In this document: positions 19,268 through 26,580 of the stretch, one piece after another | Position numbering within the stretch: the first letter of the stretch is position 1 | How the letters are laid out: every line of letters starts with the position of its first letter | Source: Chitinivibrionales bacterium | GTDB taxonomy: Bacteria; Fibrobacterota; Chitinivibrionia; Chitinivibrionales; FEN-1185 | Length of the DNA: 64,000 nt | Direction of reading: 5' to 3' | Assembly: GCA_035516255.1 (NCBI GenBank) | Contig: DATJAL010000044.1 | Location: 1 to 64,000 of the forward strand | Notes under the pieces: generated by a model | Databases searched by the model: none | Told to the model about the DNA's origin: nothing | What the model saw: the letters and a program-made list of their open reading frames with translations, nothing else | Made by a program: the position numbers and the translations under genes

Positions 19268-22200
19268 TTATTGCACGGACACAGTAAAAGCCTTGGCCGC
19301 ACTCCTCTTGTTTCCGGCCTTGTCGACCGCCGTAACGTTCCAGGTGTGCGTCCCGGCCGAAACCGTGCCGACGGTATAGGTCGCAAGAGGAAGTCCGTAC
19401 GCCTGGAATTCATACAAAGAACTTCCCCACGCCGTAGCGCGTTTGACGCAAAAAATTCGGATATATCTTCCCATCGCGTTGAGGCCGCGGATTGTTTCGG
19501 TGCCGCCTTTTCCCGCGGTCGTTTGATACACCGATTTTCCCGTCCAGTTCGAGGTGTCGTTCGAAACGTCCAGCTCGTAGGACGAAGCATAGGCCGCTTC
19601 CCATACAAGCGTCACCGAATCGATACGGGCGGGCGCCCCCAGATCGACGCACAGCCACTGGCTGTCGGCCCACGAGCTTTCCCAGCGCGTCGACAGACTG
19701 CCGTCAACCGCGTTTGCCGCACCATTGCCCTGGTTGGTCGAAGAAGCGAAGGCGGTTTTGCCCAGGGCCAGATTTCCGTATGAGGCGGTGCCGGAATCGG
19801 CGTTTACATCCGCCACTACGTTTCCGTCAAGAGCCAGTTCGTAATGATCCATGCCGGTTCCATTGTCAGAGGCGGTTTGCCAGTAAAAATTAACGGCCGG
19901 TCCAGCGACTGCCGAATTATCCGACGGGCTGACAAGGGAGAACGGCGACGGCGGAATCGTGTCTGAATAGGTAAATGTCCATTTCGCCGATGAAGTGGTC
20001 AGATTGACCCAGTTGACCGCGGTTATGTACCATTGGTACGATCCCGGGGAAATGGCGGTGAAGGCATACGCTGTGTCGGTTGTCGAGGCGATTTTACTGT
20101 TGTTGACGTAGACGTCGTACCGCTGGATTCCCGATTGCGGGTCCGAGCTTTTGTTCCATACGAGTACCGGTTTGGTACTCTGGACGGTTTGACCGTTTGC
20201 AGGCATAACCAGGCCGAACGCAAGGGGCGGCGTGGAATCGTTGAAGCCCTGGTCGACGGCGCCGACCTGGACGCCGCTCGAATCCACGGTTCCGCTCCAG
20301 TTTATTTTGATCCTGCGATCGAACGTACCGCTTCCGATGCGCGAGAACGGCTCGGTCGCCCCGTTAACCGTCACGGCAACGGTGGTGGCGGGCAGGAACC
20401 TGTCCGAAATGTACAGCGACGAGACTTTCTGCGGTTTGTCAAAACGTACGGTGATGTTCTGGTTCTGGTTCGTGCTCCCGCTTTCTTTGTAGGAAATGGT
20501 GCCGTAGGACCCCGGAACGCAAAACAGCGCGTTGTCGAGTTCGTGGTTCATGGAGGAGCCCCACTTGTCGGTGGTGGACGGAAGTTTCGGCTCGACGTAC
20601 AATTCATCGGTGTACGCGTTAAACCAGAAACCGATAAGAGAGTAATAATTGCGCCATACCACCGGCATGCTTACGTAAAAACTGTGCCCGCTCCAGTCGG
20701 TTGAGGCGAAATTGTCGCCGGGCCCGTTGTAAACCAGATAAATCCCGCCGTCGAAAACCCTGTTGCGGTTTTCGAAATACCGGTTGTAGAAATCCCTCTG
20801 GATTGCCCTCCACTCAGCCACCCTGTTTGTGGTGAGGCATGCGCCGCCCAGATGTCCGAGAATATAGGGAACCCAACCCTCATTTTCGCCGTCCGAACCC
20901 GCAGCCGCCATCCCCAGACTAAGCGGCTGCCAGAAATTGTTCAATAGATAGCTGAACGTGTTGTTGATCTCATCGTCGCCGAACATCTGGTCTTTGTGAA
21001 AATACAGCGACATCCACAGCCCGGCAAACGGCGTCTCCTGGTTTGCGGTCATGGAGGCAGACGGATTCGCCAGATACCGCGCCCTGAAGGAGGCAACGCC
21101 GGCGGTGTATGCTTTTGCAAAGCTGTTCTGCAATGCAGTGTCGCCGTAAATTCCGGCCATTTCCGCAACGATTTCGAATACCGTAAGGGCCAGTCCGGAA
21201 TTGTAAAGATCGTGGTCCTGCGGGCCCTTGTCGTAGGTTGCCCCGGTGCCCTGGAACGTGAAGGGATATGTTGTATTCGCGTTAAGGCTCGATGCCATTT
21301 TGTAAAGACGCTGCGCGGTCCGCTTGAAATACGGCCAGAGGGCGTCCATACGCGCCTTGTCGCCGGTCGCGACGAAGGATTCGTACATGCCGAACAGGAA
21401 CCCGCAATCGAGGTCGGCCCAGTTGGGGCCGCCCCATCCGTGGTAGCCGGGCGCGTCCCACAGGCAGGTTTTGTGATCGGTCACCTGACCGGCGCCGGGG
21501 ATGAAATCGTGTGAGATCTGGCCGTCGTCATCGCCGCCCACCATCTCGGTGCGCGCCCAGTATTCCATCTGTGAAGCGTTGGGCCAGGAAAACATAGGGC
21601 CGTTGATGCGCCATATTTCGGAACCGAACGCGTGCCACCCCTGGTCCATCTGGCCGAACCACGTGTAGACGCCTTCCCATTCGCTGTAACGGCCGTCTTT
21701 CGTATAGATGCTGCTGTTTGACCACGTTGTCTGGTCGAGCGTGGTGTTCACGATCCAGTCGGGAACGTTGGACCCGCGGAAGCGCTCAACGAATTGCACG
21801 GCGCGCGATTCAAAATCGCTGAAATCGTCAAGACCTGCCTGGGCAAAGAATTGCGCACTGGTCCCGATGTTCGAATAATAATACCCGGCCGGATCATCGG
21901 ACTTGCACCACGAAAGGACGAACTCGATGTCCTTTTTCTCGCCCGGGCCGAGCGTAACTTTTGCCGCAACCATGTTGGCCGTGCCGGACAACGCGTTGTT
22001 GAGTGCGCCGGAGGCGAGAAAACCGGCGTCGTTTCCAACGCTCACGACAGCCGCAGGATCGCTGCTTTGGACAAAAAGCGCCTTGGACGGCGCCCCGCCC
22101 TCCGCGGCAAAGCCTTTTCCTGAAATAACGGCTGGCGTCTGGTCGGTGGAAATCTGGAACGCGCAGGCCGCATCCGCCGCGCTGCTGCCCAGATTGCGCA

Positions 22201-23497
22201 AAGTCAAGTGGTAGAACGCGACCGGCCATGTCATTTTCGTCTGGTCCGCAGGATTGTACGGCGCGAACGCGGTGAGCGTCACCGACACGTTGTTCGTCGC
22301 GCCGAAATTCGCATATTCCACCGGGAAAATCGCGTCGTCGTCGTATCGGTTGGCGGCGTTCCAAGTCCGCTTGGCAGCAGACAATTTTGCGTTCGTCAAG
22401 ATGGTCGTCCCTCGCTTGGTGTACAGTGAGAACTGCCAGTTCGGCTGCTGCACGTAATCCTCCTGGCCGGCGGGTGTTTTCGCCTGAAAAGCGAACTGGC
22501 CGTTCCACGGACAGAATTTCACCGCTCCCGCTCCCATGCCGCCGAGCGGCGCTCCGGTGGTGCCGTCGACCGCCTCGGCAACGGTAAAGCTGCAGGTGCT
22601 CGACACCTGGTCGCCAGCGGCGGTCCTTGCGACAACGCTCCATGAATGCGTTGCGAACGCTGTTGTCCCGGCAAAAGCCGTAATCGCAACTTCAGCAAAT
22701 GTGACCCCGGCGGGAACACTGTCCGCCACGATGTTTCCGTCCACGTTCACCGCATACCCTGTGGCGCCGGCCATTGGATTCCATTCGAAAATTATCGAAC
22801 CGCCCGGCGACTTGAACACGCGGGAATTGAAACCGGGGTATACGATGTCGAATGCGGCTTTTTGAAGGACAAAATCATATATCCCCGAATATGAATCTAT
22901 TGAAGTCTGCGCTCCCTTGTATCCGGATGCGGTCACAATCAAAGTATCCACAGTGGCCGCACGCTTTGCGGCTGCAAGCGTGCTGAAGTCGCGGACGCGG
23001 ACAAGGCCGCCCGATGTCATGCCTCTGTTCACGCGGGTAAATTTGCATACGGTAACTCTGGGGCCCACTTCCGCCTTCACCAAGAATACTTCCGAAGCAA
23101 GGCATGCTCCGCCCAGCCCCAGCCGGTATTCGCCGGGCGTAAGCGCTGTGTTGACGAGATCGGCGGCCAGCCTGCCTTTTAGATCGTACATTCGTATATG
23201 CACAATCTGAGTGGCTGCAAGGGCAAACAAAAGTGATTGGCCTCGGATTATAGGCGCGGTCGAGATGGCCCTTTCAAGCAGGGCAAAACGATTGGCCGTT
23301 GAAACAATATTGTAGGCGCCGGCTGAGTCCGTCGTCGCGTTGAAACCTGCATTTGCAAGACGTACCGAGGCGCCATGGATTCCCATTCCGCCTGCGTCTT
23401 TGACTGTTCCCGTAATGGAAATTGACTGGGCGTGCGAAAGGAAGAACATGCCGACCATCATCATGCAAAAAACGTCCGAACGATTTTTTGAGTTCAT
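19268..23497 (-). CDS. Secreted GH116-like beta-glycosidase with CBM32-type (F5/8C) domain
   Basis: This large exported glycosidase has 1409 residues. The start follows GGGAGAAA and gives a signal peptide ending in FFLSHAQS. Domains in order: a carboxypeptidase-regulatory-like Ig domain (about 25-85), a sorting-domain-like module with YDLKGRLAADL...GEYRLGL (about 95-170), the GH116 N-terminal domain beginning GAPLGGMGAGAV (about 317), the (alpha/alpha)6 catalytic region (about 640-1010; HDFIPGAGQ, WADLDCGF, DHDLYNSG), two Ig/FN3-like domains, and a discoidin/CBM32 domain (about 1240-1370; NAVDGSLSTRW). GH116 members act on beta-glucosides or beta-xylosides. The exact substrate is unknown. It is probably cotranscribed with the small gene upstream. 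Confidence 0.85.
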   Translation of the reverse strand: MNSKNRSDVFCMMMVGMFFLSHAQSISITGTVKDAGGMGIHGASVRLANAGFNATTDSAGAYNIVSTANRFALLERAISTAPIIRGQSLLFALAATQIVHIRMYDLKGRLAADLVNTALTPGEYRLGLGGACLASEVFLVKAEVGPRVTVCKFTRVNRGMTSGGLVRVRDFSTLAAAKRAATVDTLIVTASGYKGAQTSIDSYSGIYDFVLQKAAFDIVYPGFNSRVFKSPGGSIIFEWNPMAGATGYAVNVDGNIVADSVPAGVTFAEVAITAFAGTTAFATHSWSVVARTAAGDQVSSTCSFTVAEAVDGTTGAPLGGMGAGAVKFCPWNGQFAFQAKTPAGQEDYVQQPNWQFSLYTKRGTTILTNAKLSAAKRTWNAANRYDDDAIFPVEYANFGATNNVSVTLTAFAPYNPADQTKMTWPVAFYHLTLRNLGSSAADAACAFQISTDQTPAVISGKGFAAEGGAPSKALFVQSSDPAAVVSVGNDAGFLASGALNNALSGTANMVAAKVTLGPGEKKDIEFVLSWCKSDDPAGYYYSNIGTSAQFFAQAGLDDFSDFESRAVQFVERFRGSNVPDWIVNTTLDQTTWSNSSIYTKDGRYSEWEGVYTWFGQMDQGWHAFGSEIWRINGPMFSWPNASQMEYWARTEMVGGDDDGQISHDFIPGAGQVTDHKTCLWDAPGYHGWGGPNWADLDCGFLFGMYESFVATGDKARMDALWPYFKRTAQRLYKMASSLNANTTYPFTFQGTGATYDKGPQDHDLYNSGLALTVFEIVAEMAGIYGDTALQNSFAKAYTAGVASFRARYLANPSASMTANQETPFAGLWMSLYFHKDQMFGDDEINNTFSYLLNNFWQPLSLGMAAAGSDGENEGWVPYILGHLGGACLTTNRVAEWRAIQRDFYNRYFENRNRVFDGGIYLVYNGPGDNFASTDWSGHSFYVSMPVVWRNYYSLIGFWFNAYTDELYVEPKLPSTTDKWGSSMNHELDNALFCVPGSYGTISYKESGSTNQNQNITVRFDKPQKVSSLYISDRFLPATTVAVTVNGATEPFSRIGSGTFDRRIKINWSGTVDSSGVQVGAVDQGFNDSTPPLAFGLVMPANGQTVQSTKPVLVWNKSSDPQSGIQRYDVYVNNSKIASTTDTAYAFTAISPGSYQWYITAVNWVNLTTSSAKWTFTYSDTIPPSPFSLVSPSDNSAVAGPAVNFYWQTASDNGTGMDHYELALDGNVVADVNADSGTASYGNLALGKTAFASSTNQGNGAANAVDGSLSTRWESSWADSQWLCVDLGAPARIDSVTLVWEAAYASSYELDVSNDTSNWTGKSVYQTTAGKGGTETIRGLNAMGRYIRIFCVKRATAWGSSLYEFQAYGLPLATYTVGTVSAGTHTWNVTAVDKAGNKRSAAKAFTVSVQ

Positions 23498-23549: not shown

Positions 23550-23753
23550 TTATTCCGCAATTACCGTTTTCTGCTCTTGATTCGTATATTCCACGAGCAT
23601 ATGCGTCGAATTATCACCCGTATTGAACCAAAACATGATTTTATCGCCGGACACGGTAAAGCAATCGGAAAACGAATATCGCAGCGCCGTGGGACGGATG
23701 TCGTTGTACTGCGACATTGCCTGTTCAATCATTCTGGCCTTTATTGCTCCCAT
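23550..23753 (-). CDS. Small conserved-looking protein (67 aa) upstream of the GH116 gene
   Basis: I do not recognise a family. The 67-residue product (MGAIKARMIEQAMSQYNDIRP...) has well-balanced composition, an amphipathic N-terminal helix and a strand-rich C-terminal half (DKIMFWFNTGDNSTHMLVEY). GAGGGAG lies at a good distance from the ATG. It has no signal peptide or membrane segment, so it is probably cytosolic. It ends 52 bases before the GH116 start on the same strand, and a palindromic site lies upstream. This points to a two-gene operon. Confidence 0.65.
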   Translation of the reverse strand: MGAIKARMIEQAMSQYNDIRPTALRYSFSDCFTVSGDKIMFWFNTGDNSTHMLVEYTNQEQKTVIAE

Positions 23754-23864
23754 TACCGTCTCCCTCGTGTAAAAGTTCCCCCATCATTCGAACCATCATC
23801 CTGCATATAATAATGTACCACCATTTCTGCTTGAAATCCATAGCGGAGAAAAACAATCGTATAC

Positions 23865-23880
23865 ATATTGTTTACAATAT
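23865..23880. promoter_or_regulatory. Palindromic operator candidate ATATTGT-TT-ACAATAT
   Basis: A perfect 7-bp inverted repeat around TT lies about 110 bases upstream of the 67-aa gene and the GH116 gene. Its core TTGTTTACA is shared with the palindrome at 26336-26354, and a further TGTTTACA lies near 23933. It could be the binding site of the nearby Fsuc_second regulator or another repressor. Confidence 0.5.
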
Positions 23881-23989
23881 TTCTATATATATCATTTAGT
23901 TATACTTACATATAACAATAATTTAGATATTATGTTTACAGTGCGCGCAAAAAAACCGACATTGTTTGAGGAGCGATGCAAAAACGGTT

Positions 23990-25366
23990 TCACGGCATGG
24001 TGTTCCCCGGCGACGTCACCACGATATCGGAGGCGGCGATGCCGAACATATACATGTCGTCCATGTACAATGTGTCGTTTGTCAAGGCAAAGAACGAAAT
24101 CGACGTTACGCCGCGCGACGCGCCCTGCCACGTGACGCCGCGTGCGGCGGTCTGGGACCCGGGCCTGGCCGCAAGGTCTGCGGATTTCATGGAAATCCGC
24201 TGCCACTCGGTCGGTATTGTAAATTCGTAGATGAACTCACCTTCTCCGGACCCGGATCCCACCGTGTCGGTATGGAACACCACCCGGAGCCGGCCCGAGC
24301 CTTTTGCGTAAAAGCTGAATTCGGTCATTTTAGAGAGATCATAGTAAACTTCCGGGACGCATATGTCAACCCCGATGCCGCCCGTGGGCGGACTGCCCGC
24401 GTTTTGCAGGGTGATGAAGATCCGGAGGCTTTTGCCGCGGAACGCGCCGGCGGTCACCATGCAGCTGTCGAACCCCGTTGGAAACACGGCGGGCGTCACG
24501 GTATTTCCGTCGGCGTTCGGACGCACGACCCACCGCCCGTCTCCCGTGCCTCCGGGCGCCGGAATCAATGTGTAAATTTCGTTGTGGGTCACGCCACCGG
24601 ACAGCGGATTCTCGAAATCCTCGAAGAGCAAAGCGTTGTCCTGCTTTTCCACGGGAACGACGGTAAACGAACCGCTCAGGGAACCTTCATAAAAGGAATC
24701 GACCCCCTGCGTTCCCGCCGTTGTCTGTGCAAACTGCACATCGTTGATGTACGATGTATCGCCTGCGCCGGTCAACGGCGGGAGCGTGAGAAAGTCCACC
24801 GTTGACCCATGGATAAACGCGACATCGATTGCGGTGCGCGGAACGCTGGTCAGCGTGTAGTTACCGATGGTATCGGGGATAAACGTCCGGCCCATGCCCG
24901 GAACGGCAACGATTAAGGATTTCTGATCAGCGGCATTTGCGGCAACGATCCGCCCCCGTACCACCACGTCGGGAGTCAAGGCCAGGTCGGCAACGGCGGA
25001 TGAGGAATCGTTGACAAGGAGGATTTTCTGCTGAATCGCAGAGCTGCCTGCGGCCGAATCCCTGCAGAAGACCGCGTATTTGCCGGCCTTGACGCTGTCG
25101 AAGCTGTAGGAGCCGTCCGATCCTGTTCGAACGGCTTTTAAAACCCTGCTGCTGTCCCCCTTGCCCGTTACGGCAACGGTTCGCAATTGCACCGAAACAT
25201 TCGAGGCAGCATTGCCGCCGGCGTCAAGGACCACGCCCGCCACCTTGGCATTTCCGCTCACGCTCGATCCCGCAGCCATGGTCGGCGCGCTTCCGCACCC
25301 AACGAACAAAAACGCGCAGCACGCGAGCAGGAGACAGGCAATTCTTCCAGGAAATAGACCGCTCAT
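23990..25366 (-). CDS. Lipoprotein with carboxypeptidase-regulatory-like domain, coupled to a Fsuc_second regulator
   Basis: The 458-residue protein starts with a lipoprotein signal (LLLACCAFLFVGC, lipid-modified Cys about residue 24). Residues 40-115 form a carboxypeptidase-regulatory-like Ig fold (AGVVLDAGGNAASNVSVQL ... GSYSFDSVKAGKYAV), and a second similar domain follows (about 130-200). The C-terminal 200 residues have the look of a jelly-roll carbohydrate-binding domain (CBM11/CIA30-like: LLFEDFENPLSG, EFSFYAKGSG, EWQRISM). Its ATG overlaps the regulator's stop codon by four bases (ATGA), so the two are translated together. It is probably a surface lipoprotein that binds polysaccharide. 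The function is not known. Confidence 0.75.
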   Translation of the reverse strand: MSGLFPGRIACLLLACCAFLFVGCGSAPTMAAGSSVSGNAKVAGVVLDAGGNAASNVSVQLRTVAVTGKGDSSRVLKAVRTGSDGSYSFDSVKAGKYAVFCRDSAAGSSAIQQKILLVNDSSSAVADLALTPDVVVRGRIVAANAADQKSLIVAVPGMGRTFIPDTIGNYTLTSVPRTAIDVAFIHGSTVDFLTLPPLTGAGDTSYINDVQFAQTTAGTQGVDSFYEGSLSGSFTVVPVEKQDNALLFEDFENPLSGGVTHNEIYTLIPAPGGTGDGRWVVRPNADGNTVTPAVFPTGFDSCMVTAGAFRGKSLRIFITLQNAGSPPTGGIGVDICVPEVYYDLSKMTEFSFYAKGSGRLRVVFHTDTVGSGSGEGEFIYEFTIPTEWQRISMKSADLAARPGSQTAARGVTWQGASRGVTSISFFALTNDTLYMDDMYMFGIAASDIVVTSPGNTMP

Positions 25367-26214
25367 GATTGTTCCTCTATTGTATCATTGGAACCGGGAG
25401 AAAACATGAGCGGAAACATCTGGATGTTGATCTGGTACACCCGGTCGCTTGAGTCAAGAGAATCAACGATCTTCACGACCCGGTCGCGAAAAGCCTCGAT
25501 TTCCGCCTCGATCATCGTATACGCTTCTTTGGTGAGCCCCACCGTGACCCCCGAGGCATGTCGCTCGTGCAAAGGAATATTGTCGAGCGACCGTTCGGCA
25601 AGCCGCAGCATGGTCCGGTTGAAATTACGGACCACCATGGATTTGACTTCAGAACGCGTGGTGATGGCCTTGTGGGTCTGTTCGTAGCGACCGTTCCTGA
25701 ACTTCCGGACGAGTCCGTGACCGACGAGCCATTCCACGGCCCGTTTTGCTTCGTCGGCCGTGATCTCCGGATGCACACAGCGCGCCACCTTCGCCCAGTC
25801 GTCCTTGTAATCGTGCTGGCACACGCCTTCGCGCAGAGCGCTGTAATACCATCGGTCGAAATATTCGAAGTGGTCGTCTTCCATCAGGTGCTGGGGTACC
25901 TGCTCGGCCATGGAGCGAAGCACGCGGTAATGTTCCTGTTTTTCGAGCGCCGATGAGGCCTGGTTGAACAGCACGAGGTTGCGGAAGAACACCGCTTCCT
26001 TTTCCTTGATGCCGAGGCCCTTGATGAATTTTTCGATCGTCTTGCGGCTGAGGTTCCGTTTGCCGTCGATGACCATCTTCAGAAGGATCGGCGCATGGAC
26101 ACCTGCACGGAGGGCGAAGAACCGGTAGGAGAAGTACTTTTTGGTTTTCTTCGCCTCGTTATAAAAATCCTTGAGGTACCGGCGATAGTCGATGTATTCG
26201 AAAATAGAGTTCAT
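25363..26214 (-). CDS. Fsuc_second/TIGR02147 (DUF4423) family protein, probable transcriptional regulator
   Basis: The 283-residue protein opens MNSIFEYIDYRRYLKDFY, the conserved start of the second-largest paralogous family of Fibrobacter succinogenes. An N-terminal helix-turn-helix-like segment (SYRFFALRAGVHAPILLKMVIDG, about residues 29-51, then NLSRKTIEKF) resembles Xre-type recognition. The DUF4423 core follows with a winged-helix-like stretch (AKRAVEWLVGHGLVRK). The family is widespread in Fibrobacter, Bdellovibrio and Leptospira and has no well-established function. The overlap with the lipoprotein gene and the operator-like palindromes around it support a regulatory role. Confidence 0.8.
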   Translation of the reverse strand: MNSIFEYIDYRRYLKDFYNEAKKTKKYFSYRFFALRAGVHAPILLKMVIDGKRNLSRKTIEKFIKGLGIKEKEAVFFRNLVLFNQASSALEKQEHYRVLRSMAEQVPQHLMEDDHFEYFDRWYYSALREGVCQHDYKDDWAKVARCVHPEITADEAKRAVEWLVGHGLVRKFRNGRYEQTHKAITTRSEVKSMVVRNFNRTMLRLAERSLDNIPLHERHASGVTVGLTKEAYTMIEAEIEAFRDRVVKIVDSLDSSDRVYQINIQMFPLMFSPGSNDTIEEQS

Positions 26215-26335
26215 GCATCATCGCATTGACAAATAAGATTGATCGACAACAATCGTGATCCTGAATACAGACCACTTCCACCCTAGTAAATTATAATGCC
26301 AAATCCTTTTGAAATCCACATCATCTTATAAAGAA

Positions 26336-26354
26336 TGTAAACAATTTGTTTACA
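26336..26354. promoter_or_regulatory. Perfect palindrome TGTAAACAA-T-TTGTTTACA, candidate operator
   Basis: A 19-bp site with flawless 9-bp arms lies about 120 bases upstream of the Fsuc_second regulator. A half-site TGTTTACA recurs at 26413-26420, and related sites occur upstream of the GH116 operon. Its position and symmetry fit autoregulation by a dimeric regulator. The rest of the 460-base gap holds only this site, A+T-rich sequence and the tRNA relic described separately. Confidence 0.6.
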
Positions 26355-26580
26355 CCTTCTCTGGTATAATTTAGTTGATTATAATGGATAGTTGAAGATC
26401 AGGCGGGAAATCTGTTTACAAGCAAATAGAGATGTTAGAAAAGTAATGTCGAGGCAAAACGGGCAACAGCTTTTTTATGTTAGGATGAAGCATGGCTGTC
26501 AAGCACAGCGGAATTTTCAGGTGAGGCGCACTTTCAATCGAAAGGATCACACTTGTAATTCCTTTCCAAACACATTTCAC

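Follow-up and report, generated by a model that had tools for sequence, protein, structure and literature searches.

How might a secreted glycosidase come under the control of a regulator and a lipoprotein encoded beside it? This question is raised by a 64,000-nt stretch of DNA from a Chitinivibrionales bacterium (contig DATJAL010000044.1, positions 1 to 64,000, assembly GCA_035516255.1; hereafter the window), whose minus strand carries in succession a regulator of the TIGR02147 family (26214 to 25363), a lipoprotein (25366 to 23990), a 67-aa open reading frame (ORF; 23753 to 23550) and a GH116-type protein (23497 to 19268). A first-pass annotation had suggested a local circuit in which a sugar-binding lipoprotein and a cytosolic regulator control the glycosidase. 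We consider it probable that the regulator activates, in a paralogue-specific manner, both its own operon and the adjacent degradation operon, and that it takes its signal from the co-translated lipoprotein. Two elements of the present analysis go beyond that annotation, namely a site position that implies activation and a specific N-terminal motif common to the lipoproteins.

Operators and promoter phasing

The perfect palindrome that the first-pass annotation had placed upstream of the regulator was recovered as a 19-bp site at 26336-26354 (TGTAAACAATTTGTTTACA), which reads TGTAAAC-AAATT-GTTTACA on the minus strand and is the predicted operator of the regulator-lipoprotein operon. A second predicted operator, TGTAAAC-AATAT-GTATACG on the minus strand (TGTAAACAATATGTATACG), precedes the 67-aa/GH116 operon at 23858-23876. 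The palindrome ATATTGT-TT-ACAATAT previously described at this promoter is present (23866-23881), but it is out of register and straddles the operator; the register 23858-23876 was adopted because it is the one displayed by the sites TGTAAACAATAAGTATACG and TGTAAACAAAAAGTATACG of the same-genus relative G001. When up to 3 mismatches are allowed, the palindrome pattern occurs in the window at these two positions only, and in none of 100 shuffles, the chance expectation for operator sites being ~0.19 per 20 kb. A search of the 4.28-Mb genome for TGTAAACANNNTGTTTACA, tolerating 2 mismatches, returned both window sites and one on contig C31; the latter falls within apparent coding DNA, lacks a phased -10 and was discarded as an operator, leaving the two window sites as the only clear copies genome-wide. 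A predicted -10 hexamer, TATAAT (26290-26295, minus strand), begins 40 nt past the end of the first operator, and the predicted -10 of the GH116 operon, TACATT (23812-23817, minus strand), stands 40 nt past the end of the second.

This organisation is conserved in G001, where the regulator orthologue has 77% identity and its overlap with the lipoprotein gene is kept; several inserted genes follow, CBM6 and BNR proteins among them, and then the 67-aa homologue and GH116. Three sites are found there, TGTAAACAAACAGTGTACG before the regulator, TGTAAACAAAAAGTATACG before the inserted operon and TGTAAACAATAAGTATACG before the GH116 operon, and these are the only matches with at most 1 mismatch in the 5.4-Mb genome, all of them within this cluster. 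They are followed by the -10-like hexamers TATATT, TAAATT and TAAATT at exactly 40 nt, as at both window operators. The operators kept in G001 and the phased -10 at both window sites lend support to the local circuit proposed earlier.

Half-sites (TGTTTACA) had also been signalled near 23933 and 26413, and both are there; the window holds 6 half-sites in all, against 0.85 expected. These two auxiliary half-sites, each TGTAAACA on the minus strand, lie at 26413-26420, 66 nt upstream of the first operator, and at 23933-23940, 64 nt upstream of the second, in the orientation of their operators. One of the three G001 promoters, that of GH116, retains TGTAAACA, at 65 nt. Elsewhere in the family, same-module half-sites cluster 73-76 nt upstream, and a half-site at ~65 or ~74 nt is seen in a minority of promoters only. 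The auxiliary half-sites may receive a second bound dimer.

The operator of the window belongs to a wider code, which was derived from the upstream regions of 143 distinct regulator genes scanned for 7-bp inverted repeats starting TGT or CGT. At spacing 5, a perfect palindrome is carried by 20 of the 143 promoters against a shuffle mean of 0.07, and by 42 against 1.8 when one mismatch is allowed; spacing 4 forms a weaker peak (15 against 1.9), and the remaining spacings are near background. A first count of palindromes without base constraints had given an excess at many spacings, probably owing to hairpins, and it was the [TC]GT ends that isolated spacings 5 and 4. The family operator is a 19-bp palindrome, TGTnnnC-N5-GnnnACA, with the half-site [T/C]GTnnnC. 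The shared palindrome that the first-pass annotation had made a condition of its proposal is common at promoters of the family as a geometry, but its inner bases differ among paralogues, so that the family as a whole does not have one TGTAAACA box. TGTATAC palindromes of the 19-bp form were also observed at G001:C9:106830-106848, in the promoter of the paralogue L091, and at G000:C52:244718-244736.

Similar recognition helices pair with similar inner operator bases, even among distant proteins: helices containing SPN, for example, accompany sites with GTATAC or GTATTC, both in Fibrobacterota and in L176, L199 and L205. In a test limited by shared ancestry and by the fact that a single best site was chosen for each promoter, operator similarity followed the recognition helix once the remainder of the protein had been corrected for (partial r of 0.35, permutation p of 0.0002), the value for that remainder with the helix removed being 0.06. 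The single positions with the strongest signal include residues 53, 42, 45 and 47. Even so, the asymmetry between helix and remainder is hard to obtain from ancestry alone.

The phasing of the -10 element is likewise a property of the family. Of the 41 sites with spacing 5, 20 have a -10-like hexamer 39-41 nt past the operator end (3.0 on average in 500 shuffles, and 10 at most) and 14 have one 49-51 nt past it (against 2.9), every other 3-nt window holding 4 at most; among the spacing-4 sites, 11 of 14 have it at 39-41 nt, against 0.8. The phasing recurs at sites outside its definition, namely at GH116, at two further G001 sites and at two targets of another module; the target sites of the module pair L105/L081, which came from scanning rather than from a selection of promoters, have TATATT at 40 nt. 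In genome G027, a phased site is present in 14 of 28 promoters, compared with 0.6 after shuffling and with 2-3 at out-of-phase distances; of these promoters, two or more overlap earlier loci. A -10 at 40 or 50 nt puts the middle of the operator at about -62 or -72 relative to the predicted start, one helical turn apart. Class-I activators such as CRP bind at such upstream positions. With respect to the predicted start sites, the operators do occupy class-I positions (upstream of -35, at ~-61.5 or -71.5, helically phased), and since this site position implies activation, we infer, on good computational grounds, that the TIGR02147 protein activates rather than represses.

The regulator and its exported partner

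The regulator (25363-26214, minus strand) is a 283-aa protein that belongs at full length to TIGR02147 (Fsuc_second) / DUF4423, with 285 bits against a cut-off of 50, positions 1-270 of 272 covered, and an NCBIfam E-value of 5e-85; the Pfam assignment is PF14394. Its AlphaFold2 model has a pLDDT (predicted local distance difference test) of 90, rising to 97-98 in the N-terminal part, and comprises an N-terminal Cro/C1-type helix-turn-helix (HTH; predicted helices 30-37 and 44-49), a winged-helix-like middle and C-terminal helices. The HTH fold matches C.AhdI, C.Esp1396I and SinR with a target TM (template modelling score) of ~0.6-0.7. Whole-chain fold matches of the model are weak, none reaching E<=0.001, and no solved homologue was found by sequence. 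The genome itself has 17 TIGR02147 matches, 16 of them full length, and relatives in the order have from 0 to 49 such genes per genome; none was found in G004, G008, G014, G017 and other genomes of the genera g4 and g8 (~2-3 Mb, same order). Outside Fibrobacterota, a few genomes were found to have the family; they bear the label Deltaproteobacteria or Myxococcales, or are unclassified.

Nearly all of these regulators, some of those in other phyla included, have an exported protein, mostly a lipoprotein, encoded directly after them. The stop of the window regulator and the start of the lipoprotein share the ATGA at 25363-25366 (minus strand), as the first-pass annotation had noted; this -4 overlap occurs in the family more often than any other arrangement, and translational coupling of the two genes is likely from the overlap. 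In the own genome, a lipoprotein gene directly follows all 16 full-length regulators. Among the Fibrobacterota, 95 regulators were fetched, of which 2 were cut by contig ends and 93 were read by eye: 3 lack a lipoprotein neighbour, 2 have it at 299 and 564 nt, and the others within 200 nt. Automatic scoring of two further genomes gave this partner in 55 of 57 cases. The adjacent lipoprotein that had been proposed as a check on the family is near-universal, and the first-pass proposal withstood the comparison of family members that could have refuted it. Five genomes that were not part of the fetched Fibrobacterota set contributed 23 regulators; for ~17 of these, the next gene encodes an exported protein whose mature N-terminus is clearly GGTxTGNP-like, some of these partners being apparently not lipidated.

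Several individual loci can be added. In the Deltaproteobacteria-labelled G062 (L300, L304, L307, L310, L312, L314 and L316), the partner is exported without a lipobox and keeps GGGTDIGSG- or VGNGG-like letters at its mature N-terminus. In the Fibrobacter subgroup formed by L187, L204, L210 and L214 (helix AKDFISRVMNGDKNLS), the operator reads CGTTGTT-N4-GACAACG with TACATT ~40 nt on, and in L214 a different large secreted protein follows the regulator. An apparent fusion of regulator and lipoprotein (an 849-aa frame in G039, L158) was rejected, as it spans an assembly gap of N.

The partner in the window (23990-25366, minus strand) is a 458-aa putative surface lipoprotein, a periplasmic and a surface location being indistinguishable from sequence; its signal peptide and its lipobox, LFVGC with Cys24, were read by inspection. 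The mature protein begins with the motif CGSAPTMAAGSSVSGNAK, followed by a CarboxypepD_reg-like domain at 42-130 (Pfam PF13620, under its cut-off) and a C-terminal CBM11/30-like jelly roll at ~300-447 (CBM, carbohydrate-binding module). The motif is shared by the partners, with a consensus past the lipid cysteine of approximately S-x-x-x-V-A-G-G-T-S/T-E/D-T-G-N (C...AGGTSETGN), and then a CarboxypepD_reg-like domain. A motif profile trained on other genomes scored 10.8-42.5 bits for 14 of 14 own-genome partners and at most 3.6 bits for 52 other lipoprotein candidates; the window lipoprotein reached 25.8 bits against this background maximum of 3.6. The idea of a general lipoprotein sorting signal was rejected, as 0 of the 52 other candidates in 0.78 Mb carry the motif.

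The C-terminal regions of the partners vary, with Laminin_G_3 in 27 of 83, DUF2341 in 26 of 83, and propellers, LRR, beta-helix and Kelch domains in a few. In the window lipoprotein, the modelled C-terminal domain has the jelly-roll fold of CBM11 (1v0a, E=9e-7, target TM 0.56) and matches CBM30 structures too, which provides independent structural support for the sugar-binding lipoprotein of the first-pass annotation; judging from this modelled fold, the domain is expected to bind a beta-glucan. Among the other lipoproteins of the own genome, the one with the most similar domain (E=2e-40 overall) precedes GH16 glucanase genes, and other modules precede GH3, C25 peptidase and di-haem peroxidase genes.

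The predicted target, a secreted GH116-type glycosidase (19268-23497, minus strand), is conserved in G001. It matches the GH116 N-terminal profile PF12215 (E=1e-14, 54.8 bits, cut-off 30.2) and, barely over the cut-off of 26.3, the catalytic-region profile PF04685 (26.8 bits), and it also has CarboxypepD_reg and CBM32/F5-F8-type domains; its C-terminal CBM32-like domain is close to that of glucanase/chitosanase enzymes (4zxe, E=9e-26). The 67-aa ORF (23550-23753, minus strand) is the first gene of this operon and has no Pfam family above cut-off. Its homologue at the equivalent place in G001 (44% identity over 55 aa, E=2e-19) suggests that it is probably a small conserved protein of the GH116 operon.

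Proposed mechanism and rival explanations

We propose that the pair in the window is one copy of a module that recurs many times in Fibrobacterota genomes and is present in other phyla. The TIGR02147 activator, probably dimeric, would bind the 19-bp palindrome through helix 3 of its N-terminal Cro/C1-type HTH and assist RNA polymerase from an upstream class-I position. It would thereby drive its own regulator-lipoprotein operon, in a positive feedback, together with the neighbouring 67-aa/GH116 operon. As each paralogue reads its own inner bases, the modules would be wired privately. The lipoprotein can be pictured as a variable ligand-binding domain on a constant N-terminal stalk with AGGTSETGN; it would sense a glucan and most likely supply the signal that sets the activity of the regulator, the conserved motif beside the lipid anchor being the best candidate for the coupling element. 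It is from the computed pairing, motif, geometry, code, phasing and conservation that we infer operator binding, activation of the GH116 operon and of the own operon, the ligand, and the control of the regulator by the lipoprotein. At a broader scale, it is conceivable, if doubtful, that the same arrangement amounts across phyla to trans-envelope signalling, in which exported proteins with exchangeable ligand domains and one shared GGTxTGNP-like motif, read everywhere by the same mechanism, address dedicated cytosolic activators without an adjacent membrane-spanning protein, each activator then turning on its own module and the degradation genes next to it.

Several observations weigh against this mechanism. 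Support for the members of the TIGR02147 module is wholly computational. A recognisable site (at most 1 mismatch) is present in only 63 of the 143 promoters, and in the Fibrobacter genome G050 only 3 of 29 promoters have phased sites, against 0.85 by chance, so that the operator rule does not carry over to this genome. The Fibrobacter subgroup mentioned above has kept the operator, and its lipoprotein neighbour is absent. The window lipoprotein has no Pfam CBM and no PDB sequence match, its CBM being recognised by fold only, and its model is middling (pLDDT 68). Moreover, no membrane-spanning partner is encoded beside the pair, which leaves the transfer of a signal without a route.

The main rival explanation is that the lipoprotein is only an output, a surface glycan-binding protein, and that the regulator itself senses a cytosolic sugar or metabolite via its DUF4423 part. 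We hold this to be possible without thinking it likely: glycan-binding lipoproteins are usual at degradation loci, the same Fibrobacter subgroup does without the lipoprotein, and the ~190 regulator residues past the N-terminal HTH could bind a ligand, yet the partner is retained one-to-one across phyla while the adjacent enzymes change, and its N-terminal motif is partner-specific and independent of the C-terminal domain. The direction of control could also be the reverse of the one proposed, Cro/C1-type proteins being often repressors for which autoregulatory palindromes are common; however, the sites leave the -10 uncovered and, near -62 and -72, occupy two positions in helical phase of the kind used by class-I activators, and an autorepressor is in our opinion unlikely.

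An RRNPP-like scheme would have the regulator sense a peptide from the signal peptide or N-terminus of its partner, as PrgX-type proteins do with lipoprotein-derived pheromones. The combination of a Cro/C1-type HTH with a helical remainder and a gene overlapping a lipoprotein gene is in line with this, and PrgX and Rgg2 are among the weak fold matches. These matches have E ~1, however, the Pfam search revealed no TPR domain such as the C-terminal one of RRNPP proteins, and the stretch that is conserved belongs to the mature protein, past the cleavage site, and not to the signal peptide; the scheme is accordingly given a small probability. It would be very surprising, finally, if the palindromes belonged to an unrelated regulator and stood here by chance. 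The binding of TIGR02147 proteins to palindromes is a prediction, but operator bases track the TIGR02147 recognition helix across phyla and the window sites are essentially unique in two genomes.

Relation to known systems and significance

A predicted activator that is local to its degradation genes and paired with an exported protein can be compared with several known systems. It resembles class-I activators such as CRP by a palindrome that is centred at about -62 or -72 and phased with the -10; it differs by its Cro/C1-type HTH and its many paralogues with private operators, whereas CRP has the CRP fold and one global regulon. The N-terminal HTH fold is that of C.Esp1396I and C.AhdI, the restriction-modification controllers, which are small autoregulatory Cro/C1-type proteins; the regulator of the window exceeds them almost fourfold in length, includes a winged-helix-like part and is partnered with an exported protein. 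The polysaccharide-utilisation regulators of Bacteroidota (hybrid two-component systems, HTCS; extracytoplasmic function sigma factors, ECF/anti-sigma; SusR) are likewise dedicated local regulators beside surface glycan-binding proteins and glycosidases, but the present pair has no adjacent membrane-spanning sensor kinase, sigma or anti-sigma factor, and its exported partner is a lipoprotein. The C-terminal domain of this lipoprotein is related to CBM11/CBM30 by its jelly-roll fold, without a sequence-level CBM match, and it stands on a lipoprotein stalk without a catalytic domain.

NCBIfam types TIGR02147 just as a paralogous family, and in the open-licence literature we found no function, operator or partner for it and no functional description of DUF4423 or of the partner motif, an earlier account elsewhere being possible. 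One DUF4423 protein is up-regulated during growth in prey in the proteome of Bdellovibrio (PMC12546842). The genome paper of F. succinogenes S85 presented the regulation of cellulases as an unanswered question, with few recognisable regulators nearby (PMC3079729). In the cultured genus Fibrobacter itself, the pairing holds and the operator form mostly does not. For plant-fibre degraders, the TIGR02147 family would supply many local regulators whose operators and promoters are predicted, together with a code that relates recognition helix to operator, and the motif of the partners suggests that, in several phyla, exported proteins are linked to gene control in a way not yet described.

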